From: a virus
Virus record (IMG/VR): IMGVR_UViG_3300027759_000131
Coordinates: 1-48,032 of that record
Strand: one strand, 5' to 3'
Length of the DNA stretch: 48,032 bases
Shown here: one piece after another, positions 273 to 39,010 of the stretch
Position numbering within the stretch: position 1 is the first letter of the stretch
Layout of the letters: each line of letters starts with the position of its first letter
Position numbers and translations under genes: made by a program
Notes under the pieces: model-generated
Database searches by the model: none
Told to the model about the DNA's origin: nothing
What the model saw: the letters and a program-made list of their open reading frames with translations, nothing else

Positions 273-273
273 A

Positions 274-15591: not shown

Positions 15592-16428
15592 ATGAAATAT
15601 CATATCCACAGTAATGGATGGACTGTTATACTTGATGATTTTGATATGGCCACATGCAGTCAAGATGATGTTAATCTGATTGGCAAATTAGTTAACGAAT
15701 ATACACTAGTGGTTGCTAAAAAACAGTTTGTTACAGTGGAAGAAGAAACTAGGTTTGTTAATATGTGGCACAATCCTATCCCGCAGTTAACACCCAAAGA
15801 CGGCGATAAATTTACACACATTGCTGTAGATACAGAAGGAAAGATATTAAGAATTTCTGGAATTAAAGACGAGCATGGAAACGATTTGGGGTTAGCTGGA
15901 CACGAAGATGAAATGGCGTGGCATTCAAACCCTCCAGAAGATCCAGCACGTAATTCAATAGTATATTTAAGAGCAGTAGAAGGGTCAGTAGGTTCACAAA
16001 CAGAATGGAACAATACTATTTTGATATGGAATGAATTGTCCCAAGAAGAAAAAGATAAGTTGCTCCCACTTAAAGTCATACCTAAAGTTGGTGCTAGTTT
16101 ATCTGGCTATAAAGACAGAGATACTAATGGTCAAGAAATGCCTGACCAAACAAGATTTAATCTTGTGCATACTAATCTAGCAGGTAAGACGGGTTTATAT
16201 TTTCCGTTTGTGCAGTTATCGCGTTTTGAAGATATGACGGTAGAGGAAAGTAGAAAGATTATGGATCCACTTGCGGAACTGGTCACTCAACCCAAGTACT
16301 GTTATAAGCATGATTGGGAAGATGGAGATATGGTTATTGCAGAACAATGGCTAGGCATACATAGACGATTGCCTTTTAAAGACATAGGCAAAAGATTATT
16401 ACATAGAGCTGGATTTGACGCACCATGA
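15592..16428 (+). CDS. TauD/TfdA-like dioxygenase, tandem copy 1 (HxN variant)
   Basis: The 278-residue protein follows TauD-type 2OG dioxygenases: an N-terminal YTLVVAKKQ strand, AWHSNPPEDPARNSIVYLRAVEG at the first iron-binding site (His111) and EQWLGIHRR near 251-259 at the distal His/Arg site. The usual HxD is HxN here, as in all four tandem copies. Asn is a poor iron ligand, so the protein may need another ligand, run altered chemistry (halogenase-type enzymes also lack this carboxylate), or be a binding protein. First gene of a four-gene operon with 4-nt ATGA overlaps. Confidence 0.8.
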   Translation: MKYHIHSNGWTVILDDFDMATCSQDDVNLIGKLVNEYTLVVAKKQFVTVEEETRFVNMWHNPIPQLTPKDGDKFTHIAVDTEGKILRISGIKDEHGNDLGLAGHEDEMAWHSNPPEDPARNSIVYLRAVEGSVGSQTEWNNTILIWNELSQEEKDKLLPLKVIPKVGASLSGYKDRDTNGQEMPDQTRFNLVHTNLAGKTGLYFPFVQLSRFEDMTVEESRKIMDPLAELVTQPKYCYKHDWEDGDMVIAEQWLGIHRRLPFKDIGKRLLHRAGFDAP

Positions 16429-17288
16429 AATATCACTTACATGAAAATGGGTGGACTGTTATCCTAGACGATTTTAACATGGCTACTTGTACACAAACTG
16501 AAATTAATTTAATAGAACGACTGATTGCCAAGTATACGCTAGTTATTGCTAAGAATCAACACGTTAATAAAGACGAAGAAATTAGATTTATTAAAATGTT
16601 TCACAATCCAATACCTATCATGCCTCCCGGCAGTCCAGGCTTTGATAGTATTGCAGTAGATCCTGAAGGATTAATTTTAAGGGTAACAGGCGAAAAAGAC
16701 AATGAAGGCAATGTTACCGGCATAGCAGGACACGATGAAGAACTAACATGGCATGCCAATGTGCCGTATGATCCAAATAGAAATTCTATAATTTACCTAA
16801 GGTCGGTGACAGGTTCAGCTGGATCTGTCACCGAGTGGAATAACACAATACTGGCATATCACGATTTACCGCAAGTAACTAAAGATCAATTAGCAACACT
16901 TAAAATCGTTCCTAAGAAAGGAACAGAACGCGATATGCGGATTGGGTATGCTTTAGAAACCGGAGAAGAACAACCTGATCAAACACGGTTTGATTTAGTG
17001 TATACAAACATAGCAGGCCAAATCGGCCTATATTTCCCTTATAATCAAATAGCTCGATTTGATGGCATGACCGTAGAGGAAAGTAGAAAGATTATGGATC
17101 CGTTATTTGAACACGTTACACAATCTAAGTATTGTTATAAGCACAATTGGGACGATGGAGATGCAACCATAGCAGAGCAATGGCTAGGTATACACAGACG
17201 CTTGCACTTCGATCGAATGGAATATCGAGTATTACACAGAGCAGGATTAGATTTTTCTCCGCAAAATTACGATGGAATAATAGAATGA
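16425..17288 (+). CDS. TauD/TfdA-like dioxygenase, tandem copy 2 (HxN variant)
   Basis: A paralogue of copy 1, with 287 residues and the same landmarks: TWHANVPYDPNRNSIIYLRSV at the first site and EQWLGIHRRL at the second. It has a longer insertion around RVTGEKDNEGNVTG. ATGA overlap with both neighbours indicates translational coupling. Divergence between copies is spread over the surface while the KYCYKH(N/D)W(D/E)DGD segment is nearly identical, which suggests a shared core and different substrates, or different subunits of one complex. Confidence 0.8.
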   Translation: MKYHLHENGWTVILDDFNMATCTQTEINLIERLIAKYTLVIAKNQHVNKDEEIRFIKMFHNPIPIMPPGSPGFDSIAVDPEGLILRVTGEKDNEGNVTGIAGHDEELTWHANVPYDPNRNSIIYLRSVTGSAGSVTEWNNTILAYHDLPQVTKDQLATLKIVPKKGTERDMRIGYALETGEEQPDQTRFDLVYTNIAGQIGLYFPYNQIARFDGMTVEESRKIMDPLFEHVTQSKYCYKHNWDDGDATIAEQWLGIHRRLHFDRMEYRVLHRAGLDFSPQNYDGIIE

Positions 17289-18157
17289 AATATCACTTAC
17301 ACGAAAACGGATGGGTAGTTAATATAGAAGACTTTGATATGGCCACATGCACCCAAGACGATATTAATCTAATGGCAAGATTAATTGCCAAATATACATT
17401 TGTAATTGTAAAAAATCAATTTCCAACACCAGCAGAAGAAGTAAGATTTGCTAAACTGTTTCATAACCCGTTACCACTGTTTGGAAGAGACTCTGTAGAA
17501 GTTAGAACAAAAGGTATAGACCCTAATGATGCAGATCCTGAAGGTATATTTTTAAGAGTCACTGGTAAAAAAGATGACGGCTGGGAATTAGGAATAGCAG
17601 GGCATGATGAAGAACTTGCATGGCATTCAAATGTACCGTGGATAGCTGACCGAAGTTCTATAGTGTATCTACGAGCCGTGGAAGGATCTGTAGGATCTAT
17701 AACTGAATGGAATAATACAATATTAGCTTACCACGATTTACCCGGCGAAATTAAACAACAAATAGCAAACCTTAAAACTGTACCTTTGTCAGATGTTAGA
17801 TTGGCATTATCGTTGCAAGGCGACGACATGGGCAAGGAAGTAGAAAATCAACACAGGTTTAACCTAGTACATACAAACATAGCCGGACAAACTGGCTTGT
17901 ATTTTCCGTTCTTACAAATATCTAGATTTGATAGTATGACCAGAGAAGAAAGTAAGCCGTTATTAAACATGTTAGCAGAGCATGTAACCAATCCTAAATA
18001 TTGTTATCAACATCACTGGGAAGACGGTGATGTGGCCATATCTGAACAGTGGTTGGGTATACATCGCCGACTACATTTTGATCGAATGCAAGAAAGAATA
18101 TTGCATAGAGCAGGCTGGGACTTTCCTATACAAAATTATCTTGAGGATATAGCATGA
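17285..18157 (+). CDS. TauD/TfdA-like dioxygenase, tandem copy 3 (HxN variant)
   Basis: The start at 17285 (ATGA overlap with copy 2) gives 290 residues beginning MKYHLHENGW like the others; a longer in-frame reading runs into copy 2 and is not used. AWHSNVPWIADRSSIVYLRAV carries the HxN variant and EQWLGIHRRLHF the distal site. It differs in a charged insertion (DSVEVRTKGIDPNDADPEG) before the first site. Confidence 0.8.
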   Translation: MKYHLHENGWVVNIEDFDMATCTQDDINLMARLIAKYTFVIVKNQFPTPAEEVRFAKLFHNPLPLFGRDSVEVRTKGIDPNDADPEGIFLRVTGKKDDGWELGIAGHDEELAWHSNVPWIADRSSIVYLRAVEGSVGSITEWNNTILAYHDLPGEIKQQIANLKTVPLSDVRLALSLQGDDMGKEVENQHRFNLVHTNIAGQTGLYFPFLQISRFDSMTREESKPLLNMLAEHVTNPKYCYQHHWEDGDVAISEQWLGIHRRLHFDRMQERILHRAGWDFPIQNYLEDIA

Positions 18158-19029
18158 AATATCAAATGCACGAAAACGGTTGGACTGTCATTGTAAGTGA
18201 TTTTGATTTTAATTATGCTACTAAAGAAGATATAGATCTAATATCTAGATTAATTGCCAAGTACACAATAGTAGTTGTAAAAAATCAACAACTATCTTTA
18301 GAAGATGAAATACGTGTGTGTCATATGTTTAAAGATCCAGAGCCAGCTTTTAAACCAACTGAAGGTAGTTTTAAAAGATCAGCGGCCGATTTAAAAATTG
18401 ATCCAACTGGTTTAATTTGCCGAGTCACTGGAGAAAAAAACGAAGACGGTGAAACTGGTATTGCTGGTCATGCTAGCGAAATGGCGTGGCATAATAACAT
18501 GCCATACGAACCAACCCGTAGGTCAATTGTATGGCTGTATGCTGTGCGCGGGTCTAACGGATCAAGAACTAGTTGGAATAATACTATATTAGCATATAAC
18601 GACTTAGACCAAGAAACTAAAAATAAATTTAAAGAACTTAAATGTATATATTTTAGTGGAATTAATCTTGCTAACGAGTATGTTAGCACAGGCAACGCAG
18701 AAGATGAAAACAAACAAGTAATTGAAACATTCACTCCGCCTTTAGTTTATACAAATAACGCCAATCAAACAGGACTTTATTTTTCACCGTACTTACTAGA
18801 AAGATTTGTAGGGTTAACTAAAGAAGAAACTAAAGCAATTGCTGATCCGTTATTTGAATACGTAATACAAGACAAGTATTGTTATCATCACGATTGGCAA
18901 GACGGTGATGTTGTAATATCAGAACAGTGGTTGGGCATACATAAGCGTTGGCCGTTTGAACAAATTGAAAAACGTATGTTACACCGTGCGGCTTTTGAAT
19001 TTACCGACCAAGATTATACTAACCTGTAA
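18154..19029 (+). CDS. TauD/TfdA-like dioxygenase, tandem copy 4 (HxN variant)
   Basis: The most diverged copy, with 291 residues. AWHNNMPYEPTRRSIVWLYAV keeps HxN, EQWLGIHKRW keeps the distal His with K/R, and DPLFEYVIQDKYCYHHDWQDGD keeps the family segment. Its end overlaps by 11 nt the converging SDR-like gene. Conservation of HxN through four diverged copies argues that the Asn is selected, not a sequencing error. Confidence 0.8.
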   Translation: MKYQMHENGWTVIVSDFDFNYATKEDIDLISRLIAKYTIVVVKNQQLSLEDEIRVCHMFKDPEPAFKPTEGSFKRSAADLKIDPTGLICRVTGEKNEDGETGIAGHASEMAWHNNMPYEPTRRSIVWLYAVRGSNGSRTSWNNTILAYNDLDQETKNKFKELKCIYFSGINLANEYVSTGNAEDENKQVIETFTPPLVYTNNANQTGLYFSPYLLERFVGLTKEETKAIADPLFEYVIQDKYCYHHDWQDGDVVISEQWLGIHKRWPFEQIEKRMLHRAAFEFTDQDYTNL

Positions 19030-19597
19030 ACTGAGATTCTAACCCTTTGCGTTTTAAATCGTACCAATTTCTAATAGTGTCGTTCATTTGCTCAACACCA
19101 ATTACTGGTACTTGAAAAGGTGCTTCCACAATCCATTTAATAGCAGTCGCTATATGTGCAGGGTCCATTGTAGTTTTTAAACCTAAAGGTTTGGCTGAAG
19201 ACTTAAATCCGCCTACAGTTACATGTGTAACTTTAAATCGTTCATCAGTTAGACTTAACCCTAATTCTTTTAAATCATTCGATTCTTTATATTTGCTAGG
19301 ATTTGCTGGAAGCCATTTAGCATACTCGTCTATACTTCCAATATTAAACACATGGCCTTCTGCCCATACTTCTCGAGCTATAGTTAATACAGTTGCTTGC
19401 AAACCATTCTTAACGTATGCATTGTTTACAATTACATTGTAGTCTGTTAAAATAGATTTTAATCTAGATAAACCGTCTTCTGTTGATAAATCATATCCGT
19501 TAGATCGACTTACAAAAGTACTGTTAGGAAATAGTTTTTTAATTTCCATAGCAATGCCTATGTGTTCTGGATTTCCAGTACAAAGTACTTTAAACAT
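19019..19597 (-). CDS. SDR-like NAD(P)-binding protein
   Basis: The 192-residue protein starts FKVLCTGNPEHIGIAMEIKK, a Rossmann beta-alpha start with the order of a short-chain dehydrogenase, followed by VIVNNAYVKNG (NNA(G)-like motif) and VFNIGSIDEYAKWLPANPSKYKES with Ser, Tyr and Lys in catalytic-like order. The glycine loop TGNPEHIG is atypical, so the cofactor may differ or the protein may be degenerate. Last gene of a minus-strand operon with a kinase-like protein, two 2OG-fold proteins and a QueC-like protein. Confidence 0.6.
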   Translation of the reverse strand: MFKVLCTGNPEHIGIAMEIKKLFPNSTFVSRSNGYDLSTEDGLSRLKSILTDYNVIVNNAYVKNGLQATVLTIAREVWAEGHVFNIGSIDEYAKWLPANPSKYKESNDLKELGLSLTDERFKVTHVTVGGFKSSAKPLGLKTTMDPAHIATAIKWIVEAPFQVPVIGVEQMNDTIRNWYDLKRKGLESQFTG

Positions 19598-20273
19598 TTA
19601 ATGCCTTTGCAATAAAATCTGCCGGATAGTTTGTTCTAAAACTATTCCAACATAACTGATCCATTGTTTGCCAAGATTGAGGAACATTCCATTCTATACC
19701 CATGCTACTTAAATGTTTGCGTATTTCATCTTGTCTAGTGCTATAGATATGGCTTTCAACTTCTTCGATACTAATATTTGGTTCTGTTACACGGTAGGTG
19801 AAAAAGTAATTGATACTTTTTAATTTTCCATCTACTATAAAATAACTACTTGGGTGCATACTGTATTTGTGCAATCCAAGACTTTTATGGGCGTGAATTA
19901 TTTCTAACATTTGATCCTGCCAATCCGGCAATATTGTATCGTAGTTAGTCATGTCGCATCCTGCTTGTTCCCAAAAATCAGGACCGTCTATTTCTAAATA
20001 CAATTTTCTGTTATCAAGGTCAATATTTTTAATTGTAGGAACTAAGTTAGGGTAATTGTTTCTCATCTGCGTAAGGTAGTTAACTTCACGCAACCATTTT
20101 TCCTCCATTTTAGAAGGATCTACTACTTGGTTTTTTCCTTTGTGATATTCAGTATCATTATGATACCATTGCACAAAAGTTTTTTTATCTTCACTAATAA
20201 GACTAGTGTAGATTAGGTTATTACGGCATAGGCCTTGACCGGGTACGTTATTGTAGTAGTATTCGTATTTCAT
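19590..20273 (-). CDS. Kinase-like (APH/protein-kinase fold) protein, copy 1
   Basis: The 227-residue protein has an N-lobe-like WLREVNYLTQMRNNYPNLVP helix (candidate Glu partner), a hinge-like LYLEIDGPDFWEQAG, and a degenerate catalytic loop LHKYSMHPSSYFIVDGKLKSINYFF in the place of H-x-D-x5-N...DFG. The catalytic Asp is not obvious, so it may be a pseudokinase or a divergent phosphotransferase. A diverged paralogue lies at 26099-26776 in the next minus operon with the same context (2OG-fold neighbour). Confidence 0.55.
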   Translation of the reverse strand: MKYEYYYNNVPGQGLCRNNLIYTSLISEDKKTFVQWYHNDTEYHKGKNQVVDPSKMEEKWLREVNYLTQMRNNYPNLVPTIKNIDLDNRKLYLEIDGPDFWEQAGCDMTNYDTILPDWQDQMLEIIHAHKSLGLHKYSMHPSSYFIVDGKLKSINYFFTYRVTEPNISIEEVESHIYSTRQDEIRKHLSSMGIEWNVPQSWQTMDQLCWNSFRTNYPADFIAKALNV

Positions 20274-20836
20274 AATGTGCTAAACATGATAAAAGAAATG
20301 TTTTCGTTGCCCTCATTAACTATGTTAGCATAGCTTGTTTTGTCTAACATGTCAATGGTGTAAATTTTACCAACTTCTGGAACAACACTATAATGACCGT
20401 TACTGTCATATGCACGTAGCCAATTTGTTCCATTAGTTACTAGCGGTACAAAAACTCTTATATGTGGTTTAACTCCAGCAGTCCATTTACCAATATAATC
20501 GCCAGGTTCAAAGGTCATTACAAAAGATCTAAACACATTGTTAAAATTATCTTTGATCATCTTAAAGAATCCAAATACTAACGCAGTATCTTTAAAATAC
20601 TCTGGACCTTCATCATGCGGATCTATATCGCAATGATAAGGAAACGCAAGATCATTGTAAATAGTCTGCAACCCGTAACCGTGCATTGTCTTTAAACTAA
20701 AATGATCGCTAAGGCTTCTTGTATCATTGTGATCTTTTATGTAGTGCCAATGATAATGTTCGTAGTCAGTTTGTAGTTGTTTTAAATAAGCAACAGCATC
20801 TTGCGGATTATAGGTTAACTCAAGTGTTGTTATCAT
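20270..20836 (-). CDS. Aspartyl/asparaginyl hydroxylase-fold protein with degenerate iron site
   Basis: The 188-residue protein has the hydroxylase core pattern (GVKPHIRVFVPLVTNGTNWLRAYDSNG...VPEVGKIYTIDMLDKTSYANIVNEG..ISFIMF), which matches Asp/Asn beta-hydroxylases after the iron site. The expected HxD is IGKWT and the distal His position reads SYAN, so the usual ligands seem lost. It may be a non-catalytic partner, or my register may be off by one strand. ATGA-type coupling to the kinase-like gene downstream. Confidence 0.5.
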   Translation of the reverse strand: MITTLELTYNPQDAVAYLKQLQTDYEHYHWHYIKDHNDTRSLSDHFSLKTMHGYGLQTIYNDLAFPYHCDIDPHDEGPEYFKDTALVFGFFKMIKDNFNNVFRSFVMTFEPGDYIGKWTAGVKPHIRVFVPLVTNGTNWLRAYDSNGHYSVVPEVGKIYTIDMLDKTSYANIVNEGNENISFIMFSTL

Positions 20837-21421
20837 TTAGTATCCAAGTATATGCAATGTAAACTTTGGAGTCATGCCAGCGTTAATGCCAGTATGCCAT
20901 TCTTTATAATTTTTCCATTTAAAAATAGAACCTTCAGGAACATTATATATGTAATCATCTCCAATTATAAAAATATGTCCCATAGTAGGAGAACACATTG
21001 TTATGCTATAACGTTTAATTTTTCCTTTTTCTAAATATGTTTGTTCGTTGTCGTCTACGTCCCAGTGCCATGGAGCCATGTAGCCAGGATCAATACGACT
21101 AATCCACGCACGATGTACTCCTGTTAAACGTAAGTAATTAGCCACGTCATTGACTAGATCTTGTTTAAAATCTTTGCCTGGGTAATAGTTAATCCACTGC
21201 ATAGAATTGGTGTTAAACTTGGCATCTTTCCACATTTTATTAATATCTGCATAGCCAGGGTCGTCTTGGTGTGCTGTTAACCCAGCCATTACATCGGTAC
21301 CAGGATTGTTAATTAGTTCCTGTGTAAGATTGATTAAATTATGTCTGTAATAGTATCCTAAGTAAATGGTACTTTTAAGACTAGTTAGCAATCGTTTGTC
21401 AAATACAGATGTTGTAATCAT
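20837..21421 (-). CDS. 2OG-Fe(II) oxygenase/cupin-like protein
   Basis: The start at 21421 overlaps the upstream stop as ATGA and gives 194 residues (MITTSVFDKRLL...). APWHWDVDDNEQTY provides HxD, NYKEWHTGINAGMTPKFTLHI the distal His and a basic residue, with IKRYSITMCSPTMGHIFIIGDDY between them as in the double-stranded beta-helix. It resembles the two plus-strand oxygenases at 25076 and 25578 in pattern. Substrate unknown. Confidence 0.7.
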   Translation of the reverse strand: MITTSVFDKRLLTSLKSTIYLGYYYRHNLINLTQELINNPGTDVMAGLTAHQDDPGYADINKMWKDAKFNTNSMQWINYYPGKDFKQDLVNDVANYLRLTGVHRAWISRIDPGYMAPWHWDVDDNEQTYLEKGKIKRYSITMCSPTMGHIFIIGDDYIYNVPEGSIFKWKNYKEWHTGINAGMTPKFTLHILGY

Positions 21422-22125
21422 TCTAAGTATCCAAATGCCCACAAGCGTTCTTTACACCACCAGCAAGATCCGCAGTGTCCTTCTGTATGCGTGTCTGTTT
21501 CACAACTTCTAGTAAATGGAAACAAATCTTTTTCTATTGCTAGCTCTTTATATAACGTAGCAATACCTTGTTTAGTATAATTAATCATTGGATTATAAAC
21601 ACGGCTATCTTGCGAAAGTTTTTCTTTGTATTGGCCGTCTATAGTAAGTGCAGGATTACTACAATCAGTACCCAGCGGAATGTTTATTTCTAAACCAAAT
21701 AACGGATGCACATTATCATAATGTCTCCATTGTCTATGCCACTCAGGGCCGGGCATTCCCCAAGATGCATAAACATCATCAGGTGGAAATTTGGTTAATC
21801 CTGTGTATAAAATATCAATGTCACCCGAGTCTAAAGCATCTTTATAAATTTTAAAAATCATCTCCGGTGTTTGATGAGCCGCAGGCATCTTATGTACAAA
21901 GTAATTAGTTTTGCCTGTAAGTTCTGCACATCGTTTAACTACTTTATCAAACGCTGGTTCTAGTACAAATTGTCTTTTAGCACCGAGCAAGTTATAGATA
22001 TGTAAATCGTGCTTTATTTCTTTCATTAACAAGTATAGTATAACAGCACTATCAGCGCCGCAACTGGTACTAATACCTACTGGACCATCTCTATAAATGC
22101 CAAAATCAATATTGGCTAATTTCAT
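21418..22125 (-). CDS. QueC-like PP-loop ATPase, copy 1
   Basis: PP-loop GISTSCGADSAVILYLL near the N-terminus binds ATP pyrophosphate, and the C-terminus carries the QueC-type zinc site SCETDTHTEGHCGSCWWCKER. QueC converts 7-carboxy-7-deazaguanine to preQ0 by adenylating a carboxylate and adding ammonia. Relatives in other contexts adenylate other substrates. I prefer the second Met (22125), since it has a GAGAG site and an ATAAATA box lies just upstream of the first one (22140). It heads a minus operon. Confidence 0.75.
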   Translation of the reverse strand: MKLANIDFGIYRDGPVGISTSCGADSAVILYLLMKEIKHDLHIYNLLGAKRQFVLEPAFDKVVKRCAELTGKTNYFVHKMPAAHQTPEMIFKIYKDALDSGDIDILYTGLTKFPPDDVYASWGMPGPEWHRQWRHYDNVHPLFGLEINIPLGTDCSNPALTIDGQYKEKLSQDSRVYNPMINYTKQGIATLYKELAIEKDLFPFTRSCETDTHTEGHCGSCWWCKERLWAFGYLE

Positions 22126-22144
22126 GCTCTCTAATTTCATACAA

Positions 22145-22151
22145 TATTTAT
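22145..22151 (-). promoter_or_regulatory. Late-type promoter box, minus strand
   Basis: ATAAATA on the minus strand, 4 nt before the first possible ATG (22140) of the QueC-like gene. The partner box for the plus strand is 20 nt away at 22171. Confidence 0.5.
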
Positions 22152-22170
22152 TTAGGTGGCCGGCCCTGCC

Positions 22171-22177
22171 ATAAATA
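22171..22177 (+). promoter_or_regulatory. Late-type promoter box, plus strand
   Basis: ATAAATA 4 nt before the ATG at 22182 of the first radical SAM gene; back-to-back with the minus-strand box at 22145. Confidence 0.5.
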
Positions 22178-22181
22178 TCTG

Positions 22182-23225
22182 ATGCTAATTAAAACCCTAT
22201 CCATGTGTGAACACTGCTATAGACATATACCAGCTGAACGGTTTGAACGGGACGGCCAAGTATGGTTAGGTAAAACTTGCCCAAAACATGGCTATCATGA
22301 ATGTTTAGTTGAAATTGATTCAAATTTTTATAAAACTCACAAATACACAAAACGTAAACCTAGTTCATACTGGTTAGATATTACTAACAGATGTAATTTA
22401 GAATGTCCGCATTGTTACCAAATGCCCGATAATGAATCAAAAGACCCGGGCATAGGTTATTTGATATCCCAAGTTGAAAGCTGGCCAGATGATGGATTTC
22501 CAATCAGCTTAGTTGGTGCTGAACCAACTACTCGTAAAGACCTTGCAGATTTAATACGTGCTATTCAGGCAATACCTGGTAAGCCTAGAATGATAATGGT
22601 TGTTACCAACGGAATTAATTTAGGTAAAGAAGAATATGCTAAAAAGTTTGTAGGTATAGAAAATCTTAAATGGACTATTGGCCTTAACCATCCCGAATAT
22701 AACGGCGGGGTTATTCGTGTTAAGCAACAAGCAGGGGTAGACAACTGTGTTGCATTAGGACTTACTATTAAAAACTTTACATACACGTTGGGTAGTTTAG
22801 ATCAATTAGAATATTGTTTAAACGAAATGCAAGAATGGAACCGTTTAGGAATTTGCGACAACGCCCGTATACAAGTAGGTGTAGACATTGGACGTATTCC
22901 TGAAGACAATCCTCCTGAACTATACCTTTCACAATTAGTACACGCTACAAAAGAATTATGTAAACATAAAGGCTGGTCGTGGGAGCCTTCAGAAACTGAA
23001 GGCAATAGAACACACTACTTGGTGCGTATTAACGGACTAGTACACAGATTAATTAAATGGGTTGATGTTAAAACTATAGATTTTGAAGAAACGTTTTCAG
23101 AATCGTACGCAGACATGATTCCTACTAAACCTATGAGCCCATTACTGCATCAAGTTATACTGCGTGATAGATTTGTTAATGAAGGTCAAATGCTATTTGA
23201 TACAATACCAAAAGAGTATCTATGA
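22182..23225 (+). CDS. Radical SAM protein with N-terminal zinc-ribbon-like domain, copy 1
   Basis: The protein has CNLECPHC (Cys71, 75, 78), the CxxxCxxC [4Fe-4S] site. Before it stands CEHCYRHIPAERFERDGQVWLGKTCPKHG (Cys9, 12, 33, His36), the small metal-binding module known from Tes/MJ0619-type radical SAM enzymes, some of which act on lipids or as methylases. VGAEPT replaces the common GGEP. Start is 22182 or Met8 at 22203; neither has a clear Shine-Dalgarno, and 22182 is close to the predicted transcription start. It overlaps its paralogue by 4 nt. Confidence 0.82.
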   Translation: MLIKTLSMCEHCYRHIPAERFERDGQVWLGKTCPKHGYHECLVEIDSNFYKTHKYTKRKPSSYWLDITNRCNLECPHCYQMPDNESKDPGIGYLISQVESWPDDGFPISLVGAEPTTRKDLADLIRAIQAIPGKPRMIMVVTNGINLGKEEYAKKFVGIENLKWTIGLNHPEYNGGVIRVKQQAGVDNCVALGLTIKNFTYTLGSLDQLEYCLNEMQEWNRLGICDNARIQVGVDIGRIPEDNPPELYLSQLVHATKELCKHKGWSWEPSETEGNRTHYLVRINGLVHRLIKWVDVKTIDFEETFSESYADMIPTKPMSPLLHQVILRDRFVNEGQMLFDTIPKEYL

Positions 23226-27450: not shown

Positions 27451-27467
27451 GTGCTACTATTATGACT

Positions 27468-27474
27468 ATAAATA
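27468..27474 (+). promoter_or_regulatory. Late-type promoter box, plus strand
   Basis: TATAAATA with a 5-nt gap to the ATG at 27480; again the ATG falls at the expected +1. Divergent partner of the box at 27444. Confidence 0.52.
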
Positions 27475-27479
27475 TTTCC

Positions 27480-31198: not shown

Positions 31199-32500
31199 CA
31201 AATCGCCCAACTCTGGAAATATTTTTCTAAAATCTGTTCCACGTTGTTGATCCGTTACAGTTAAATAATCCTCAAGCATAGGAAGTTTGTTAGACCAATC
31301 TTCTGCCATCATGTACTGTACTAATCCTTGCCAACGTTTAACTCCGTATGGGTTAGTCATAAATTCGTTATCAGATAATCGTCGAGAACAGAAATAGTCA
31401 ACTTGTTTTACAACTTTGTCTTTTAAATGTTGTGGAAGTACTCTAACATTTAGATAGCTAGGTAAGTATACTAAGTGTGTTCCTATTAAGCCGGCGCCGT
31501 AAGGAGGCAAGTTAATCTTTTTGAAGTTTTTACTTTCCTTCCAATGCACTAAGTCTGGTATATTCATTACATTTAACAACTGCACAGCGCAGGCAATATT
31601 AACTGTAATGTTGTTAGGAGTATCGTCTAGTCTTTCTAAGTTGGTAACAACATCACTCCATTTGCTAGGATAACGTATATAATCATTACGGACGCCTACT
31701 GCATCGACACTAAAGTTGAATTTAACTTCTTTAAAATGTTTCCATAAATCAAATAATTTTTCTGGAAGTTCAAGCCCGTTAGAATTATAACGCAAGACGC
31801 ATAATTTGGCGGCACCTGTTTCCACCATAAACTCTAATATCTTGTAGTGTTCAGGGATTAACAGAGGTTCTCCGCCTGCAAAATAAAGCTCGCGAATATT
31901 ATATGCTTGCAAACGCATATCACTTAGGAAACTACCTTTCTTATACCACGTATAATCAAAGTCGCTATTCCATTGCTGATCTTGTTTTAGTTCAATAGTT
32001 TTATATTTAGGATATTGCAGTTTCCACTCTTTAATCCAACTGCTACTATCGTGTGGACTACACATAATACATTTAAGTTGGCACAAATTTCCTAAGCGCA
32101 AATCAAAATAAGGAATGTCTACAGGTAAACTACCATCTTTGCCGGTAGCATCTATAATAGTTGGCATATCCAATCGTTCGTTCCAAACTACGGATTCCCA
32201 TTGACGTTTACTTACAATACCTTTAGATTCTTCTTCAAAGCATTTGGTACAGCTTGGAGGAACTTTATTATCTAGCATTTGAAGGCGAACTGCCTTCATA
32301 TAGTCACTATTCCAAACTTCGGCAATGGAATGTGTTTGCAAATTCATAACTTGGCCGTTTTGCTTTACAAGGCCAACATCTTTAACATCCTCTTCACCTG
32401 CGCCACTAGCATTAGCAGTACAACACACACGAACATCGCCGTTAGGGCGAGTAGCAAGATGTATCCATGGCAAAGGGCATATAGATGTTTTATTTGTCAT
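31193..32500 (-). CDS. Twitch-domain radical SAM protein (N_twi_rSAM-like), copy 2
   Basis: A paralogue of the protein at 27480: CPLPWIHLATRPNGDVRVCC and CTKC form the leading twitch module, then CQLKCIMC (Cys140, 144, 147) and AGGEPLLIPEHYK. It has 435 residues. It is the last gene of the long minus operon that begins at 39010. Reciprocal copies on both strands fit a history of block duplications in this cluster. Confidence 0.82.
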   Translation of the reverse strand: MTNKTSICPLPWIHLATRPNGDVRVCCTANASGAGEEDVKDVGLVKQNGQVMNLQTHSIAEVWNSDYMKAVRLQMLDNKVPPSCTKCFEEESKGIVSKRQWESVVWNERLDMPTIIDATGKDGSLPVDIPYFDLRLGNLCQLKCIMCSPHDSSSWIKEWKLQYPKYKTIELKQDQQWNSDFDYTWYKKGSFLSDMRLQAYNIRELYFAGGEPLLIPEHYKILEFMVETGAAKLCVLRYNSNGLELPEKLFDLWKHFKEVKFNFSVDAVGVRNDYIRYPSKWSDVVTNLERLDDTPNNITVNIACAVQLLNVMNIPDLVHWKESKNFKKINLPPYGAGLIGTHLVYLPSYLNVRVLPQHLKDKVVKQVDYFCSRRLSDNEFMTNPYGVKRWQGLVQYMMAEDWSNKLPMLEDYLTVTDQQRGTDFRKIFPELGDLL

Positions 32501-33572
32501 TGTTTAAGATTTTTTGTTTGTCTATTTTTATAAAAGGGCTATTAGGGCCGCACATGATTATACAAGTACTACTTGATTTTTCAGTCCATTTCTTTTGCCA
32601 CATTGTTTGCCACGCATCAGTTTCTACTATATTTTTAAGGCCTAATTCTAAAACATTTAATTTATTAAATCCTAGTACTTGTTGTTGTATAATGGCGCCT
32701 TCTTCTAAGACAGAATCGTCTTCATATAAACTGTATTGCTTTAATAAATTGCTATCATAGTTCGTATATAAGAACGCACCTATCATACAGCACGGGCTTA
32801 ATGTATATTGAGCATCAATGTATAGTTCTTTGTTGCGTAGACTTTGGCAATCTATAATTTCAGCGCCAGCCCATTTTTGATGCCCGGCTACCTGTTTACG
32901 TCCAATAAACTCTACTATCGTATCTTCTGGCTGTTCTATATTATAAATGAACTTGCCGCCTTTATCAACTACTGGGAACGGTCGGCTAAATCGTTTACTA
33001 TTTTTTACAGTAAATTTTTTAAATCCTAGTTCACAGGATAATTGTTCAGCTTGTTTAACTTGGTGTTGATTATGTTTAAATCTAATAAAGCACCATTCCG
33101 CTTTGCCGCCCGAGTTAATAAATGCACTTGAGTTTTTTATTATCTTATCAAAATCTGTACCAATACGATATGTTGAATGTGTATCCTCTAAGCCATCCAA
33201 TGCAAACACTACTATATGATTAGTGGGCAAACTTTCTGCTAAACTGCGCCACCAGTTTTCACTACGGGCACTGCCATTAGTATGGATCTGTAATTCTATT
33301 GTTGGGGATACAGAAGATACATAACTACACATTTTAATTAAATCGTTGTTAAGAATAGGATCTCCAAAGTCTCCACAAAAATTTAATAATCTAAGTTGAG
33401 ATAACACATCAACCGTAAATATTTTTACAAAATTATCGTAAGTCCAATCATTCAATTTAAGTAGCGGGTTATCTATGCCGCCGTGAATGTTTCGAGGACA
33501 CATTGGGCAACTAGCTTGACAACGGTTAGTTATTTCAATTTGTATCATTTCTAGCTGGTTAAATTTAAACAT
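32490..33572 (-). CDS. Radical SAM/SPASM-like protein, CQASCPMC type, copy 1
   Basis: CQASCPMC (Cys18, 22, 25) very near the N-terminus, FCGDFGDP in the GGEP position, and a late cysteine group (DCQSLRNKELYIDAQYTLSPCCMIG ... CIIMC) forming a SPASM-like region. It has 360 residues. Its paralogue at 36197-37273 keeps all of these. Overlaps the neighbouring genes by 8-11 nt, so translation is coupled. Confidence 0.82.
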   Translation of the reverse strand: MFKFNQLEMIQIEITNRCQASCPMCPRNIHGGIDNPLLKLNDWTYDNFVKIFTVDVLSQLRLLNFCGDFGDPILNNDLIKMCSYVSSVSPTIELQIHTNGSARSENWWRSLAESLPTNHIVVFALDGLEDTHSTYRIGTDFDKIIKNSSAFINSGGKAEWCFIRFKHNQHQVKQAEQLSCELGFKKFTVKNSKRFSRPFPVVDKGGKFIYNIEQPEDTIVEFIGRKQVAGHQKWAGAEIIDCQSLRNKELYIDAQYTLSPCCMIGAFLYTNYDSNLLKQYSLYEDDSVLEEGAIIQQQVLGFNKLNVLELGLKNIVETDAWQTMWQKKWTEKSSSTCIIMCGPNSPFIKIDKQKILNNDK

Positions 33573-35112
33573 TTGATTTCCAGCTTAACTTTTTATCGAT
33601 ATAAGTTTGCACAAAGTTTTTAAATTTATCGTCGGAAGTATTTAAATTAGATAACTTATAATCGTATACATTTTCATATTGATTTGTTTCGTGGTATACA
33701 AACAGCCTGTCAGTTAAGAACGGATTACAACCTCTAAGGCCTTTGAAACCATTGTCTGAATAAAATTCTTGAACTAAGGTTTCTGCTTGGTACCAATCCA
33801 TAGTATCATGTTTCCAGATAACGACATCATTTCTAGTGCTACCCACGCCACCACCCCTAGGAGTTGTAGATTGGAATAGAACATTACCGCTATCGTCTTT
33901 AGTTACAGTATATCCAGGATTTTGTCTAGCTTCTAATTTAACTAAGCCGTTGCCTACAAGTTCTTTAGTAAAACGACTTTGATTTGTTAATGTTTCATCA
34001 TAGTCGGGAACTTCTAAAATATGGGCACTGGCACTTTGTCTAGACCATTTAGTGTTTAACCATTCTAACGAGTTGTTCCATGACTCTACACTTTCGCCTG
34101 GTATACCACAAATCATCTGTATGTTTGCTCTGTAGCGTTTAGGTGCATGTATGTCAGTATAGGCTTGAAAGTCTAACAAACCGTCTTGTAACTTTTCAGG
34201 ATCCATTCCCTTACGTACAAGTTTACCAGCCGCATGATTAAATGTTTCAATACCCATACTATGTCCAAGGAAGCCTAGACGGATATAAGTATCCCAATGC
34301 TCACGATGTTTGACAACTAAGTCTCCACGAGCAAATCCACATATCCAAGGATTGTAATTTAATTCATCTACCGCATCGGCATACTTCTGTAATTTCTCAG
34401 GACGATCATTAAATGTTTCGTCCATAACACGCCAGTTCTTAATACCCCATTTTTCAAATCCTGTTTGCATTTGCAGTTTAAATTGTTCTTTGCTTACACT
34501 AACATCTTTAGCCTGTCCTATGATAGGAAAGTTACAATAACTACAACTAAACATACAGCCTCGGGCAGTTTCAATCTGCGGGCACTCGTATGCTAACATG
34601 AAATCTCTAGCTTCGTAATCAACAAGGTAACTGTCTAATGGCGCACTTGGATAGTGATGCAAACCGCGTATAACTTTCTTGTTTCCAAAGAAAGCAGAGT
34701 CTGTCATTAACGGTGCTCCTAGTGTTCCTACAAGATGCTTACACAATGCCAATATAGCATTTTCACCATAACTGTCAACCCAATAGTCCACCCCTTGTGC
34801 CGGAGTAGTCAACGCATTGTTTCCTCCTATTACAACTGGAATAGTAGGATATGATAGTTTAAGCCATGCTATGAATTCGTTTAAGTAAGGACTCCATGGA
34901 TTTAAAAATGCTGTGCCAAAACAAAACATAACTGTATTTGTATTAGTGCGGGAACGAACTAGTTCTTGTAATTCTTCCAATTGCCAAAACGCAGTAAAAT
35001 CTACCACTTCGGCATCCCAATCGTTCATCCGTAAAAATGTTGCTACACGATGTGTCCACAAGGATCTTTCCCAGCGTTTACCTGTTAAACTAAAAAATAT
35101 TGCGTGTCTCAT
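33565..35112 (-). CDS. B12-binding-type radical SAM protein
   Basis: The largest radical SAM protein here (515 residues). The N-terminal 140 residues form a Rossmann-like domain of the cobalamin-binding kind found in class B enzymes (TVMFCFGTAF, IPVVIGGNNA), although the D-x-H-x-x-G motif is not visible. C-terminal to it, GCMFSCSYC (Cys186, 190, 193) is the radical SAM site. Class B enzymes methylate unactivated carbons or do other B12-dependent radical steps. Whether cobalamin binds here cannot be told from the sequence. Confidence 0.78.
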   Translation of the reverse strand: MRHAIFFSLTGKRWERSLWTHRVATFLRMNDWDAEVVDFTAFWQLEELQELVRSRTNTNTVMFCFGTAFLNPWSPYLNEFIAWLKLSYPTIPVVIGGNNALTTPAQGVDYWVDSYGENAILALCKHLVGTLGAPLMTDSAFFGNKKVIRGLHHYPSAPLDSYLVDYEARDFMLAYECPQIETARGCMFSCSYCNFPIIGQAKDVSVSKEQFKLQMQTGFEKWGIKNWRVMDETFNDRPEKLQKYADAVDELNYNPWICGFARGDLVVKHREHWDTYIRLGFLGHSMGIETFNHAAGKLVRKGMDPEKLQDGLLDFQAYTDIHAPKRYRANIQMICGIPGESVESWNNSLEWLNTKWSRQSASAHILEVPDYDETLTNQSRFTKELVGNGLVKLEARQNPGYTVTKDDSGNVLFQSTTPRGGGVGSTRNDVVIWKHDTMDWYQAETLVQEFYSDNGFKGLRGCNPFLTDRLFVYHETNQYENVYDYKLSNLNTSDDKFKNFVQTYIDKKLSWKSNV

Positions 35113-36200
35113 GCTATTATTGTATTTTTAATTTCTATAAAATCTTGGTAGTCTTTGGCTTTAGGTATACACATACCGCACCCGCAACGTTTGTTAGGAC
35201 ATACTATAAATTTATCTTTTTGCTCAAGTCGGTTTCTTAAATCTTCAAGTAACTTATCACTATCATCTAAATTACCAATTGGGCCACGCTGTTCGTCGTA
35301 CAATGCTTGGCAGGTTTGGTGATGATAAACTAAATTTGTTTCTTGGTCAACATATAAGAAATACCAATCGACCATACAATTCCATTTTTCAAAATTAGTA
35401 TTAATTAATTTAATAGGTTGCCATGCCCCGTCAACTTTGCCTTCCACACATCGACCGCCACAACAAGCACGGCCTAGTTGGTCTCCACCTGCAACTGATT
35501 TAGGCTTGTCTTCCAATCCCATCTCGGTCCAAAACCATGCTTGCTGTTCCTTTGAATATTCATGACTAGTTCTGCGATTTGTGCCGTCTGCATCAATAAA
35601 CCAACCTTTACGTATAATTGCACCATCACCAATTGGTCTTGGATTTGCACGTATTCCTTGTTCTTTTAATTGATTGTATACTCCAGTTGTTTCTTCCCAA
35701 TGGTCTGCATGTAACATTACATTAACTTGTAGCTTAACATCTGTTTTGGATAATGCTATGATGTTTTTTATTGCACGTTCTTTTAACTTAGGATCTGCTT
35801 CTGCATGGTAGCTGATAGTTACATGGTTAATTGTATCTATAATCTTCTTAGAATAATTTTCTCCCCAGGCTCCGTTAGTAGTAAGACCTAGATAATAAAA
35901 TTCAGGCTGAGACTTAATATGATCTAGTAGATTCCAGAAATTAGGATTGGCAGTTGGTTCGCCCCCTGTAAAATTAATATTAGTGTGCGTATCTTGTTTA
36001 CGTTTAGAATTATACAAGTTAGCCCATGATTGTATAAAGCTAAATGTCTTTTTAAATTCTTCTAAACTTTTAAAATTACTAGTATTGTTATGTCTGGATG
36101 ATTCACAATAAGAGCAGTCGTAGTTACATCGTTTGCCAGTATCCCAAACAACTGAAAATGACTCATTATTAGAATTGCGTATTGCGGAAGTTTCAATCAT
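35109..36200 (-). CDS. Radical SAM protein, CNYDCSYC type, copy 2
   Basis: CNYDCSYCESSRHNN (Cys25, 29, 32), NFTGGEPTANP, then a cysteine-rich C-terminal half: GRACCGGRCVEG, CQALYDEQRG and CPNKRCGCGMC. The extra cysteines can bind one or two auxiliary clusters. It has 363 residues and ATGA-type overlaps to both neighbours. Its core resembles the protein at 29479 on the other strand. Confidence 0.82.
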   Translation of the reverse strand: MIETSAIRNSNNESFSVVWDTGKRCNYDCSYCESSRHNNTSNFKSLEEFKKTFSFIQSWANLYNSKRKQDTHTNINFTGGEPTANPNFWNLLDHIKSQPEFYYLGLTTNGAWGENYSKKIIDTINHVTISYHAEADPKLKERAIKNIIALSKTDVKLQVNVMLHADHWEETTGVYNQLKEQGIRANPRPIGDGAIIRKGWFIDADGTNRRTSHEYSKEQQAWFWTEMGLEDKPKSVAGGDQLGRACCGGRCVEGKVDGAWQPIKLINTNFEKWNCMVDWYFLYVDQETNLVYHHQTCQALYDEQRGPIGNLDDSDKLLEDLRNRLEQKDKFIVCPNKRCGCGMCIPKAKDYQDFIEIKNTIIA

Positions 36201-37273
36201 AGGGTTTCTCTTTCAGCAAACTGGTCAATTGGTTTGCTTAATGCATTAGTTCCGCAAGCTCTAGCACACGTTACCATTTTAGGGTCTGACCAATATCGAT
36301 CCCACACCGTTTGATAGACCTCAGAGTCTACAATAGATTTAATACTGCGATACTGTGTATCGATGTTGTTGATTCCACCAAAGTCTTCAATCATAGCATT
36401 GTATTGGTCTACTATTACTTGCCTAACTTCTAGTATAGAAGATCCATCTTCTGTATAGTTGTAAGGAGTACTTGCTAGCCAGCAACAGGGAAATACTCTG
36501 CCAAACGCATCTATGTAGATTTCTTTGTTTTGCTGTGCATAGCAATTGATTGTGCTGGCCGCTACTATTTGTTTATAGCTGTCAAGTACCTTGCGGTCAA
36601 TAAAAACAATTTTACTTTCATTAGCTGGTTCAAGATAGTGTGTTACTTTGCCTAGTTTATCAAGTACAGGGAATTTGCTTTCTAGTACAAATCTACTGCT
36701 GTCTTTCATAACAAATCGTTGAAATCCTAATTCGCTTGCAATAGATTTGGCAGTTTCTACTTCGTGGGCATTGTGTTTAAATCTAATAAATGCCCATTCG
36801 GCAATGCCACCGGCTTTTATATAGGATACTGCATTGCGAAGTATTTGATTATAATCAGTACCTATGCGATATAAACTATGCGTTTCATCCAGCCCGTCTA
36901 TAGCAAACACTACTAAATGATTCTCTGGCATTGCGCGAGCAAGACGTTCCCACCAACTGCTATTTCTAAGGCTACCGTTTGTATGTATTCTAATTTCAAT
37001 ATTTGATTTATACTTGACACTGTATTCAATCATTTCTATTAAATCGTTATTAAGCAACGGGTCACCAAAATTACCGCAAAAATATAAGGCGTCAACTTGA
37101 TCCAGCACTTCTTGATTTATTGTATGTTTAAAATGTTCAAGAGTCCAGCTGTTAATTTTAATTAACGGATTATCAACACCGCCGTGGTGATTGCGACTGC
37201 ACATGGGACAACTAGCTTGGCAGTTATTTGTTATTTCTAAATGTATTTGTTTCAGTTCAGAGAATTTAAACAT
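36197..37273 (-). CDS. Radical SAM/SPASM-like protein, CQASCPMC type, copy 2
   Basis: A 358-residue paralogue of 32490-33572: identical start MFKF, CQASCPMC (Cys18, 22, 25), YFCGNFGDP, VVFAIDGLDETHSLYRIGTDY, and the late CYAQQNKEIYIDAFGRVFPCCW plus CARACG region. Both copies flank the B12-type and CNYDCSYC-type genes in one operon, which points to an internal duplication. Confidence 0.82.
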   Translation of the reverse strand: MFKFSELKQIHLEITNNCQASCPMCSRNHHGGVDNPLIKINSWTLEHFKHTINQEVLDQVDALYFCGNFGDPLLNNDLIEMIEYSVKYKSNIEIRIHTNGSLRNSSWWERLARAMPENHLVVFAIDGLDETHSLYRIGTDYNQILRNAVSYIKAGGIAEWAFIRFKHNAHEVETAKSIASELGFQRFVMKDSSRFVLESKFPVLDKLGKVTHYLEPANESKIVFIDRKVLDSYKQIVAASTINCYAQQNKEIYIDAFGRVFPCCWLASTPYNYTEDGSSILEVRQVIVDQYNAMIEDFGGINNIDTQYRSIKSIVDSEVYQTVWDRYWSDPKMVTCARACGTNALSKPIDQFAERETL

Positions 37274-38048
37274 TTTTTATTTTATTCTTAAATTCTTCAG
37301 TAAACACCCCGTCAATGCGTACAGCGTATGCCGGCTCCGGAATAGGATCGCCACCATGTGTGTCCTTGTCGTTCCACCATCCTACACGGGACTCTATGTA
37401 AAATCGTTCTTTGGTTTCTGCATTGTAAACGTAAAACGGACGCTTTGTATTGACCCTGACGTGTATAAATTCTGAATCAGTATTTGATTCAGGGTCTGCT
37501 AAATTGTCTCTATGTTCAAATGAAATTCCAAACGAATCAACAGATACTATGTAGGCCCTGCCCACGTGTGTAAATATTCCAGCCGTTACTAGACTTTCTA
37601 TCCATGCCAGTAGCGAAGGAAAATATTCTGCAATTTCGTTTGGTGGACGTTTTTTAGGATCAGCTTTCCAACCAGGAACGCCATCCCAGAAATTATAAAC
37701 AGTATAGTGGTCGTGAGCACCGTAAGCATATTTCATAAATTCAACAAATGCGTGATTGTCCTGATCGCGAATGGCCAATCCTGTTTGCTTTAACGGATCG
37801 TCGTCTGGCAATGCCATAAATTCTTCATACGCATGAAACATCGGTTTAACTTTGTCAAACACATAGCTACGCTGTTCGTCTACGATTGGATTTCTAAATT
37901 GTCCACGTATTGTTAATTTTTTAGACAATGCCATACCTTTCAGTATATCAAGTTGAATAGCATCAAACGTTGTTAAGTCAATAAGATGTTCTAATTCAAA
38001 ATGTGTTTGTCCGTAAGACCCAATCATTCCAGGTTTAACTGCCGGCAT
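37266..38048 (-). CDS. 2OG-Fe(II) oxygenase-like protein, type A copy 2
   Basis: A paralogue of the protein at 24267: ISFEHRDNLADPE (HxD), EFIHVRVNTKRPFYVYNAETKE, VGWWNDKDTHGG (distal His), YAVRIDGVFTEEFK (Arg). It has 260 residues, with 1-8 nt overlaps to radical SAM genes on both sides. Conserved association of this oxygenase type with radical SAM genes on both strands suggests that they act in sequence on one substrate. Confidence 0.76.
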   Translation of the reverse strand: MPAVKPGMIGSYGQTHFELEHLIDLTTFDAIQLDILKGMALSKKLTIRGQFRNPIVDEQRSYVFDKVKPMFHAYEEFMALPDDDPLKQTGLAIRDQDNHAFVEFMKYAYGAHDHYTVYNFWDGVPGWKADPKKRPPNEIAEYFPSLLAWIESLVTAGIFTHVGRAYIVSVDSFGISFEHRDNLADPESNTDSEFIHVRVNTKRPFYVYNAETKERFYIESRVGWWNDKDTHGGDPIPEPAYAVRIDGVFTEEFKNKIKNV

Positions 38049-39010
38049 TATATTTTCCTTTTGGGTATTTTGCTATCTGCACTACTTACGCACATAGGAG
38101 TAATACATATTTTAGGTTCTTTGAATAATTCAAAACCTGTAAGGATATTTCCTATATTATTTTCCTTACAACTGTAAGCACGTTTAACTTCAGTACCTCT
38201 TATTATAACACTTTGATAGCCTGCATTGCAACCCCATCCTTGGAACTTATTAAATCCTAATGCGTTAAATCTTTCTGCTTGATCGATGTAGTAATCTTTC
38301 TCTCCATCATTAAGTCTAATTTGAAAAACTTCTCGTTGTTCATATTCGTCCTGCATAATTTTAATCATTTCAGGAGTGTATCCTTCTACAATAGCAGTAG
38401 CAGTATCATTGCTTTGTGGTTTGAGTGTTACATTAATCCCACGTTTGCGTAATCGTTCACAACGTTCTAGTGTTTCAAAAAACTTGGCTGGAACCATTAC
38501 TTGATTGACAGTAACGTGTACTAGTTCGTACATTAACTGTAGACACTTGTCGCCAAACTCTTGCTCCTTGGCAAACTCATCATGAAAGCTGGCTGTAATA
38601 CTTCTACGTTGTAACATCTCAGTGTTCTTACACCAAGTGTTCCACCATTTACTACCAGGCGACAAATTAGTAGTCATGTGTATACTCTGGTAAGTACTTT
38701 CAAGTTCGTCTAGGTATTTTACCAATTCGGGTAATTGTTTATATGCTGTAGGTTCGCCACCACTAAAGCTCCAATGAAATCTATCAAAACCATTAGCTCG
38801 TGCCTGACGCTTAATTTCATCTATTGCAGACTTGTACACATCTAAAGTTTGGTAATCTAATTTGTCGCTTCGGGCATATGGCCAACAATAGCTACAGTTA
38901 TAGTTACAAAATCTACCCAGTATCCAACTTACGTTAAATAGTTTGGTATCCAACATGGTTTGTTGTCCAAATTGGACTATATTTTGGAAAGGAATTTGGC
39001 TAAAGTTCAT
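38048..39010 (-). CDS. Radical SAM protein, CNYNCSYC type, operon head
   Basis: CNYNCSYCWPYARS (Cys35, 39, 42), FSGGEPTAYKQL, and a C-terminal GWGCNAGYQSVIIRGTEVKRAYSC ... ICITPMC region with auxiliary-cluster cysteines. It has 320 residues. First gene of an eight-gene minus operon. A TATTTAAT (minus-strand ATTAAATA) 8 nt before the ATG is a weaker late-type box. Confidence 0.82.
   Translation of the reverse strand: MNFSQIPFQNIVQFGQQTMLDTKLFNVSWILGRFCNYNCSYCWPYARSDKLDYQTLDVYKSAIDEIKRQARANGFDRFHWSFSGGEPTAYKQLPELVKYLDELESTYQSIHMTTNLSPGSKWWNTWCKNTEMLQRRSITASFHDEFAKEQEFGDKCLQLMYELVHVTVNQVMVPAKFFETLERCERLRKRGINVTLKPQSNDTATAIVEGYTPEMIKIMQDEYEQREVFQIRLNDGEKDYYIDQAERFNALGFNKFQGWGCNAGYQSVIIRGTEVKRAYSCKENNIGNILTGFELFKEPKICITPMCVSSADSKIPKRKI

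Follow-up and report, generated by a model that had tools for sequence, protein, structure and literature searches.

A radical-SAM and oxygenase gene cluster in a viral genome fragment as a possible late tailoring island of T4-superfamily phages

Introduction

What might a phage make with ten radical S-adenosylmethionine (SAM) enzymes packed among oxygenases? The locus that raises this question lies at positions 15592-39010 of an IMG/VR virus fragment of 48,032 bases (record IMGVR_UViG_3300027759_000131, here the window), and what such islands make has been asked ever since the descriptions of cyanophage halogenases and pelagimyophage islands. A phage that devotes at least 24 kb (in the related contig G002, 36 kb) to costly, oxygen-sensitive radical enzymes, and keeps them under strong purifying selection, must have a product that matters for infection. 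A conserved core with exchangeable tailoring genes also offers a defined target in the search for the products of tail-linked islands in T4-like phages.

Our preferred reading, held tentatively and with somewhat less than even confidence, is that a T4-superfamily phage carries the cluster as a late tailoring island, one of the host recognition clusters linked to tail fibres, and that its soluble enzymes decorate the virion. It is supported because the genes co-occur, their motifs are intact, they share a late motif, they adjoin a tail-fibre-like gene and their products have scarcely any membrane segments, and because enzymes also adjoin tail fibres in the Pelagibacter phage Mosig, in cyanophages and in pelagimyophages.

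Results

Gene content and conservation

All 27 open reading frames (ORFs) of the cluster were confirmed (Table 1). They alternate between strands in six blocks (+, -, +, -, +, -), leave only 85 of 23,419 bases non-coding and overlap their neighbours by a few bases. They encode ten radical-SAM, four TauD-like, seven other oxygenase-like, two QueC-like and two kinase-fold proteins, with one SDR-like and one SGNH-like protein. A GNAT-like gene and a methyltransferase-like gene (MT) on the flanks are cluster members in relatives. An earlier account drawn from the letters alone (the sequence-only reading) had counted ten CxxxCxxC proteins, four TauD-like proteins, at least five other 2-oxoglutarate (2OG)-type proteins, two QueC-like ATPases and a GNAT-like gene, and these were all recovered.

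A pattern scan of viral contigs returned at least 189 relatives of oxyC1 (80 kept) and 218 of B12rS (79 distinct loci kept). Among the 59 oxyC1 loci of at least 18 kb (several near-identical and all cut 10 kb from oxyC1, the counts being neither independent nor complete), kin1 was present in 59, the GNAT-like gene in 56, oxyB in 51, kin2 in 50, rS2 in 49, AspH3 in 48, twi1 in 46 and B12rS in 44; MT was found in 34 of 36 B12rS loci. Homologues are not scattered, and the clustering is not chance. Full contigs of relatives hold the same core shuffled among other genes, in G002 as a block of ~36 kb with 15 radical-SAM matches in the contig. The core comprises the GNAT-like gene, kin1 and kin2, oxyC1, oxyB and AspH3, and several radical-SAM enzymes, with twitch and B12-type ones among them. 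Motifs are intact in practically all homologues of the radical-SAM, AspH, oxyB, oxyC1 and QueC2 proteins, the TauD and kinase-fold families being the exceptions. Median dN/dS by family is 0.03-0.11 (approximate, with some dS above 1), and the cluster is under strong purifying selection.

The sequence-only reading had most genes paired with a paralogue on the other strand and the block growing by duplication. Some pairs do lie on opposite strands, but TauD1-4, rS1/rS2 and AspH1/AspH2 stand in tandem and kin1 and kin2 share the minus strand. The duplications are old because kin1/kin2, rS1/rS2 and twi1/twi2 are kept separately in most relatives, which argues against recent growth.

What varies between phages are TauD, AspH copies, QueC-like genes, SGNH, a pyridoxal-phosphate (PLP) enzyme, methyltransferases, a halogenase and an AMP-ligase; relatives contain 73 clusters of accessory genes. 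One PLP-enzyme-like family (fam0; the label is a sequence reading only, with no Pfam match) occurs at 88 loci (L034, L035, L037 and 85 others), usually beside AspH3, and is absent from the window. SGNH is found at 63 loci, a 480-aa family without assigned function at 50 and a Trp halogenase at six. A PDB profile search with the family fam2 gave one chance-level match.

Such accessory genes could point to a diffusible secondary metabolite, a halogenated or acylated amino-acid or sugar derivative serving as toxin, signal or anti-defence agent. Relatives encode the Trp halogenase (288 bits), AMP-binding enzymes, a class III aminotransferase, DegT-like and AcpS-like proteins and, by a look at the sequence, an amidinotransferase-like protein, and Iyer et al. 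(2021) proposed a halogenated-metabolite cluster of this sort for cyanophage S-SSM6a (PMC7824862). However, no exporter, nonribosomal peptide synthetase or polyketide synthase was found, the accessory genes are sporadic, and co-regulation with tail genes suggests a role in the virion; we regard a free metabolite as improbable. Neither a halogenase nor a carbamoyltransferase of the kind described in 2021 was recognised in the window cluster, and relatives were not searched for the latter.

Late promoters and tail-fibre genes

Gene packing and a shared late-promoter motif, NATAAATA, bear out the earlier suggestion of overlapping, co-regulated operons on both strands. Of the seven NATAAATA sites on the two strands of the window, five fall within the three gaps between divergent cluster genes, and a sixth stands ~50 bases ahead of the tail-fibre-like gene. 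The motif occupies 84 of 115 unique divergent cluster gaps, against 18.1 expected from dinucleotide shuffles; TATAAATA is rarer in the window than expected (1 versus 6.35). Because NATAAATA positions peak 11-15 bases before ATG, the 5' leaders are suggested to be very short or absent. In relatives the motif also stands before portal, baseplate-wedge and tail-fibre genes, and G005 and G007 encode late sigma factors resembling gp55. Together these features support late expression of the cluster, a timing predicted from promoter sequence, and agree with the late use proposed before.

T4-superfamily genes in relatives include gp55, portal, major capsid protein, gp46/47, clamp loader and baseplate genes. 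The capsid protein of G007 shares 63-68% identity with its counterparts in jumbo phages, Vibrio 2.275.O and PA5oct among them, and a G005 baseplate protein is nearest to Atu_ph07. Both the window and G002-G005 have a tail-fibre-like gene at the GNAT end; the window protein itself has no PHROG match. The locus has both the tail-fibre adjacency and the hypervariable content of a host recognition cluster. Neither VrlC nor the neck gene gp14, between which such clusters sit, was located beside the cluster in these fragments.

An island with this position and timing might instead remodel the host envelope (lipopolysaccharide, lipid or capsule) late in infection, for example excluding other phages or easing release. 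The pelagimyophage authors propose O-chain modification for the host recognition cluster (PMC7029224), and in Vibrio phages K566/K567 an island with glycosyltransferase and lipid A genes and, by locus numbers, twitch radical-SAM genes replaced another in the clade that switched receptor (PMC12028318). KdsA and weak GT8-like matches in relatives, the resemblance of rS1/rS2 to the lipid-coupling enzyme Tes and the faint FeeM similarity of the GNAT-like protein point the same way. Membrane-type proteins, however, are scarce: of 2770 cluster proteins just 2 have a Kyte-Doolittle (KD) value above 1.9, compared with 12 of 492 outside, and no protein of the window cluster looks membrane-bound. Nor was a flippase, exporter or glycosyltransferase recognised there, and late timing leaves little time for remodelling. 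Envelope remodelling is the best supported of the rival explanations, followed by a free metabolite, DNA modification and defence, in that order, and is nonetheless unlikely.

Proposed role

If the cluster does decorate the virion, its soluble enzymes would be at work in the cytoplasm of the infected cell while virions assemble. An amino-acid-, acyl- or sugar-derived group would be built or modified by C-H chemistry, drawing on radical-SAM abstraction, B12-dependent methylation, hydroxylation, acylation and amide or nitrile formation. The group would then be placed on virion proteins, most likely tail fibres or adhesins, either directly or pre-made, and swapping of accessory enzymes would vary surface chemistry much as phages vary their adhesins. 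IscU, IscA and Fe/Mn-superoxide dismutase (SOD), which are encoded in G002 (L012-L013, 21648-22887), G006 (355-1568) and G008 (116213-117617), would help to load and protect Fe-S clusters, and these genes fit the Fe-S demand of the cluster. G005 and G007, themselves fragments, yielded none of these genes, and the corresponding region lies outside the window. KdsA and PTPS genes lie near the Isc/SOD genes in G002 and G006.

Several points weigh against virion decoration. Adjacency and timing would fit any late product. Genes of glycosyltransferase-like, KdsA, AMP-ligase, AcpS-like and amidinotransferase-like type turn up in some relatives and would suit a glycan or a free metabolite equally well. 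The T4 core genes tested had no match in the window fragment itself, and a crude composition test, in which many loci are truncated, places a fibre-like protein no more than 4 kb from the GNAT end in just 22 of 57 loci. Use on virions or the host surface, which the sequence-only reading had suggested, is plausible and strengthened by tail-fibre adjacency.

Radical-SAM enzymes

CxxxCxxC is present in the proteins starting at 22182, 23222, 27480, 29479, 31193, 32490, 33565, 35109, 36197 and 38048. The Pfam Radical_SAM model matched all seven ORFs scanned (22182, 27462, 29422, 32490, 33565, 35109 and 38048), with 32490 below cut-off; the other three are assigned by alignment to rS1 (23222), by PHROG (31193) and by NCBIfam (36197). 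Twi1 is an N-terminal twitch radical-SAM protein (NF033640, 336.7 bits against a cut-off of 170), and the motif is kept in 73 of 73 twi2 homologues. In profile searches the closest solved structure to rS1/rS2 was Tes (7tol, E 3e-26); at 73 bits against an equivalog cut-off of 450, they do not qualify as tetraether synthase. Nor does B12rS, conserved at 80-86% in relatives, qualify as a PhpK P-methyltransferase (TIGR04479, 61.8 bits against 600). Searches of cultured phages with rS1 and B12rS (tblastn) gave short weak matches only, and a pattern-based scan of 84,980 prokaryote genomes, which may miss distant relatives, returned two remote relatives of B12rS. PDB profile searches with B12rS, the QueC-like proteins, GNAT and fam0 gave no match.

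A role of the cluster in phage-borne defence or counter-defence, as a module resembling viperin, Qat or Cap9 systems, is suggested by a 63-bit match of rS3 to prokaryotic viperin models and by the part that QueC-family proteins play in qatABCD and type IV CBASS (PMC13279940, PMC13329287). The matches are limited to the shared core of radical-SAM or QueC proteins, none of these systems' partner genes was found and the enzymes are far too many, which leaves defence the least probable explanation. PADLOC returned viperin and QueC matches to the shared core only, and one unnamed candidate-system match for B12rS.

Oxygenases

The seven oxygenase-like proteins outside the TauD family start at 20270, 20837, 24267, 25076, 25578, 26773 and 37266. 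Asp_Arg_Hydrox matches are weak for 25076 and 26773, and HxD...H is present in the families; oxyA, in which HxD is present, is a candidate. OxyC1 has a P4H/PHD2/AlkB-like fold, and a pattern-based scan of the 84,980 prokaryote genomes, limited as above, found no relatives of it. The oxyB HxD...H motif is intact in 77 of 77 homologues.

TauD1 and TauD4 match the TauD/TfdA profile PF02668, and TauD2 and TauD3 are aligned paralogues. The His-X-Asp/Glu...His iron site of that family is, however, absent from all four: Asn replaces Asp in 54 of 67 family members, these four included, whereas the two His and several Arg residues never vary. A solved TauD homologue carries WHSD, unlike the window proteins. 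Fe/2OG halogenases also lose the iron-site carboxylate, but to Ala or Gly, so that any function assigned to the HxN proteins would be tentative. The subfamily, which also occurs in a cultured Pelagibacter phage, poses a distinct enzymological problem that is open to experiment.

A more specific proposal is hyper-modification of adhesins by combined radical-SAM, B12 and 2OG/iron chemistry, like that of ribosomally synthesized and post-translationally modified peptides (RiPPs) but on structural proteins, with HxN TauD performing an unusual reaction such as a halogenation-type rebound; we hold this to be doubtful. In RiPP maturation of the proteusin polytheonamide, radical-SAM, B12-radical-SAM, 2OG oxygenase and methyltransferase enzymes act on one peptide. 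The window cluster differs in having no precursor peptide gene (85 non-coding bases, no short extra gene) and we claim no membership; a virion protein encoded elsewhere may be the substrate.

QueC-like, kinase-fold and other genes

PF06508 scores above cut-off for QueC1 and weakly for QueC2, whose motif is kept in 33 of 33 homologues. The two proteins could belong to a DNA hypermodification pathway, including one of the 7-deazaguanine type, and relatives add PTPS (G002, G006, G008 and G010) and FolE (G008). The TGT/DpdA family, however, is absent from seven of seven records, all fragments, and in the same records QueC has no match outside the cluster. The set of FolE, QueD, QueE and QueC with TGT/DpdA was not found together in these fragments, QueE not having been specifically tested, and no dCMP hydroxymethylase-like match appeared in the contigs tested, also fragments. 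Late promoters do not suit pre-replicative timing either, and we consider DNA modification very unlikely.

The two proteins read earlier as kinases do have a kinase-like fold (kin1 by Foldseek with a model of pLDDT 83; kin2 aligns with it at ~21% identity) but not the residues of active kinases. Because the alignment lacks the catalytic Asp and no more than 3 of 60 kin1 and 7 of 71 kin2 homologues have H[GR]D, both are probably pseudokinase-like. The SDR- and SGNH-like genes are present as described before, but their labels are weak: neither window protein has a Pfam match, and the SGNH label comes from a look at the sequence and a weak GDSL match of an SGNH-like family of the cluster. FeeM similarity is weak and seen in 9 of 16 GNAT members; a tblastn search of cultured phages for GNAT found none.

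Comparison with known islands

No near DNA match to the window was found in cultured phages. The nearest cultured case is Mosig EXVC030M (MT647606), a T4-like Pelagibacter phage with an enzyme cluster at ~54-71 kb, between virion genes, that adjoins its tail fibres. By profile search Mosig shares six window families, MT, rS3, rS6, SGNH, TauD4 and oxyB/AspH; its rS6 and TauD4 homologues score 98-99 bits (rS6, 98 bits) and its MT homologue is annotated as a methyltransferase. It differs in having only two radical-SAM matches by Pfam in the genome and in its carbamoyltransferase, ArnB-like aminotransferase, nitroreductases and desaturase, and kin1, oxyC1, B12rS and twi1 were not detectable in it. 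The Mosig TauD (L217, 17980-18789) shares the Asn-for-Asp change, as WHSN, the form in TauD1 and TauD3.

The pelagimyophage host recognition cluster is a hypervariable, tail-fibre-associated island with radical-SAM cassettes (PMC7029224), and a T4-like TARA genome reported in 2017 has 12 radical-SAM genes and an Fe-S carrier (PMC5332604). We liken the window to these by description; the parts of the two papers available describe neither a conserved core nor late promoters. Cyanophage halogenase/2OG cassettes (syn9, Sf-FR1, S-SSM7; VirX1-type halogenase) lie directly downstream of tail fibres with several oxygenases, and their halogenase family is common to some window relatives; they lack the radical-SAM-rich core. 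Profile search found no homologues of the window families among cyanophage oxygenases. In Vibrio phage K566 the island VPK566_0302-0314 contains four twitch-type radical-SAM genes related to twi1/twi2, placed there by locus numbers. It is smaller and has a glycosyltransferase and PagP, and other core genes of the window were not detected. The K566/K567 island, with its glycosyltransferase and lipid A genes, replaced another island in a receptor-switching clade (PMC12028318).

The claim that no known phage pathway fits is right in that the searched records hold no complete 7-deazaguanine pathway. It is too strong in view of the islands beside tail fibres, homologous or analogous, of Mosig, pelagimyophages, cyanophages and K566, though these are without a known product either. 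We found no description of the conserved core, the late-promoter wiring or the HxN TauD subfamily in the open literature, which does not prove that there is none.

Features of the locus

Table 1. Genes and promoter gaps of the cluster and its flanks
Feature	Position	Strand	Basis or remark
Late-promoter element AATAAATA	13652		before tail-fibre-like gene
Tail-fibre/virion-like gene, cluster flank	13708..14988	+	49% over 318 aa to 694-aa G003 protein with PHROG tail matches
GNAT-like acyltransferase, core gene	14985..15542	-	weak FeeM similarity
Divergent gap with late-promoter element CATAAATA	15543..15591		element at 15557 (+)
TauD1, WHSN variant	15592..16428	+	PF02668 E 1e-25
TauD2, WHAN variant	16425..17288	+	aligned paralogue
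TauD3, WHSN variant	17285..18157	+	aligned paralogue
TauD4, WHNN variant, 2,4-D dioxygenase-like	18154..19029	+	PF02668 E 3e-31
SDR/NAD-binding-like protein	19019..19597	-	sequence look; homologues in relatives; no Pfam match
kin1, protein-kinase-like fold, core gene	19590..20273	-	model and Foldseek
oxyA, oxygenase-like	20270..20836	-	HxD present; no family match
oxyB, 2OG oxygenase-like	20837..21442	-	HxD...H
QueC1, QueC-like PP-loop ATPase with CxxCxxC	21418..22140	-	PF06508 28 bits, over cut-off
Divergent gap, two late-promoter elements	22141..22181		22170 (+), 22152 (-), ~11 nt before start codons
rS1, radical SAM with N-terminal zinc ribbon (Tes/HMPTM-like)	22182..23225	+	PF23545, PF04055
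rS2, radical SAM, rS1 paralogue	23222..24289	+	alignment to rS1
oxyC1, 2OG oxygenase-like core gene	24267..25073	+	HxD...H...R
AspH1, Asp/Asn beta-hydroxylase-like	25076..25576	+	PF05118 20.8 bits, below cut-off
AspH2, Asp/Asn beta-hydroxylase-like paralogue	25578..26102	+	comparison with relatives, motif
kin2, kinase-fold-like	26099..26776	-	alignment with kin1; no catalytic HRD
AspH3, Asp/Asn beta-hydroxylase-like	26773..27438	-	PF05118 18.9 bits, below cut-off
Divergent gap, two late-promoter elements	27439..27479		27467 (+), 27451 (-)
twi1, N-terminal twitch radical SAM	27480..28727 (ORF from 27462)	+	NCBIfam NF033640
QueC2, QueC-like PP-loop ATPase, SGGADS and CxxCxxC	28718..29482	+	weak PF06508; alignment
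rS3, radical SAM	29479..30375 (ORF from 29422)	+	PF04055 E 1e-12
SGNH/GDSL-like hydrolase	30356..31198	+	GDSL-like sequence; no own Pfam match
twi2, N-terminal-twitch-like radical SAM	31193..32500	-	PHROG radical-SAM matches
rS4, radical SAM	32490..33572	-	PF04055 22 bits, below cut-off; PHROG 21308
B12rS, radical SAM with apparent N-terminal B12-binding region (PhpK/ladderane-like)	33565..35112	-	PF04055; TIGR04479
rS5, radical SAM	35109..36200	-	PF04055
rS6, radical SAM, SPASM-type similarity	36197..37273	-	NCBIfam radical-SAM matches
oxyC2, oxyC1 paralogue (39%)	37266..38048	-	alignment
rS7, radical SAM	38048..39010	-	PF04055 E 2e-13
MT, methyltransferase-like gene	40059..40664	+	adjoins rS7 in relatives

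A tRNA-Thr(AGT)-like gene at 39087-39204 (+), which has a 3' CCA and 20 nt inserted in its anticodon loop, was predicted by ARAGORN only, with introns allowed; Rfam had no match at 39000-39300, and this may be a decayed or unusual tRNA lying between rS7 and the genes that follow. At the other end of the window, 28 predicted tRNA genes at 1-9578 (+) adjoin a PHROG 850 'RNA-binding protein' at 10358-11767. Giant ORFs of 5185 aa (G005, 14701-30258) and 5394 aa (G007, 49091-65275) occur in relatives, the one in G005 among tail genes.

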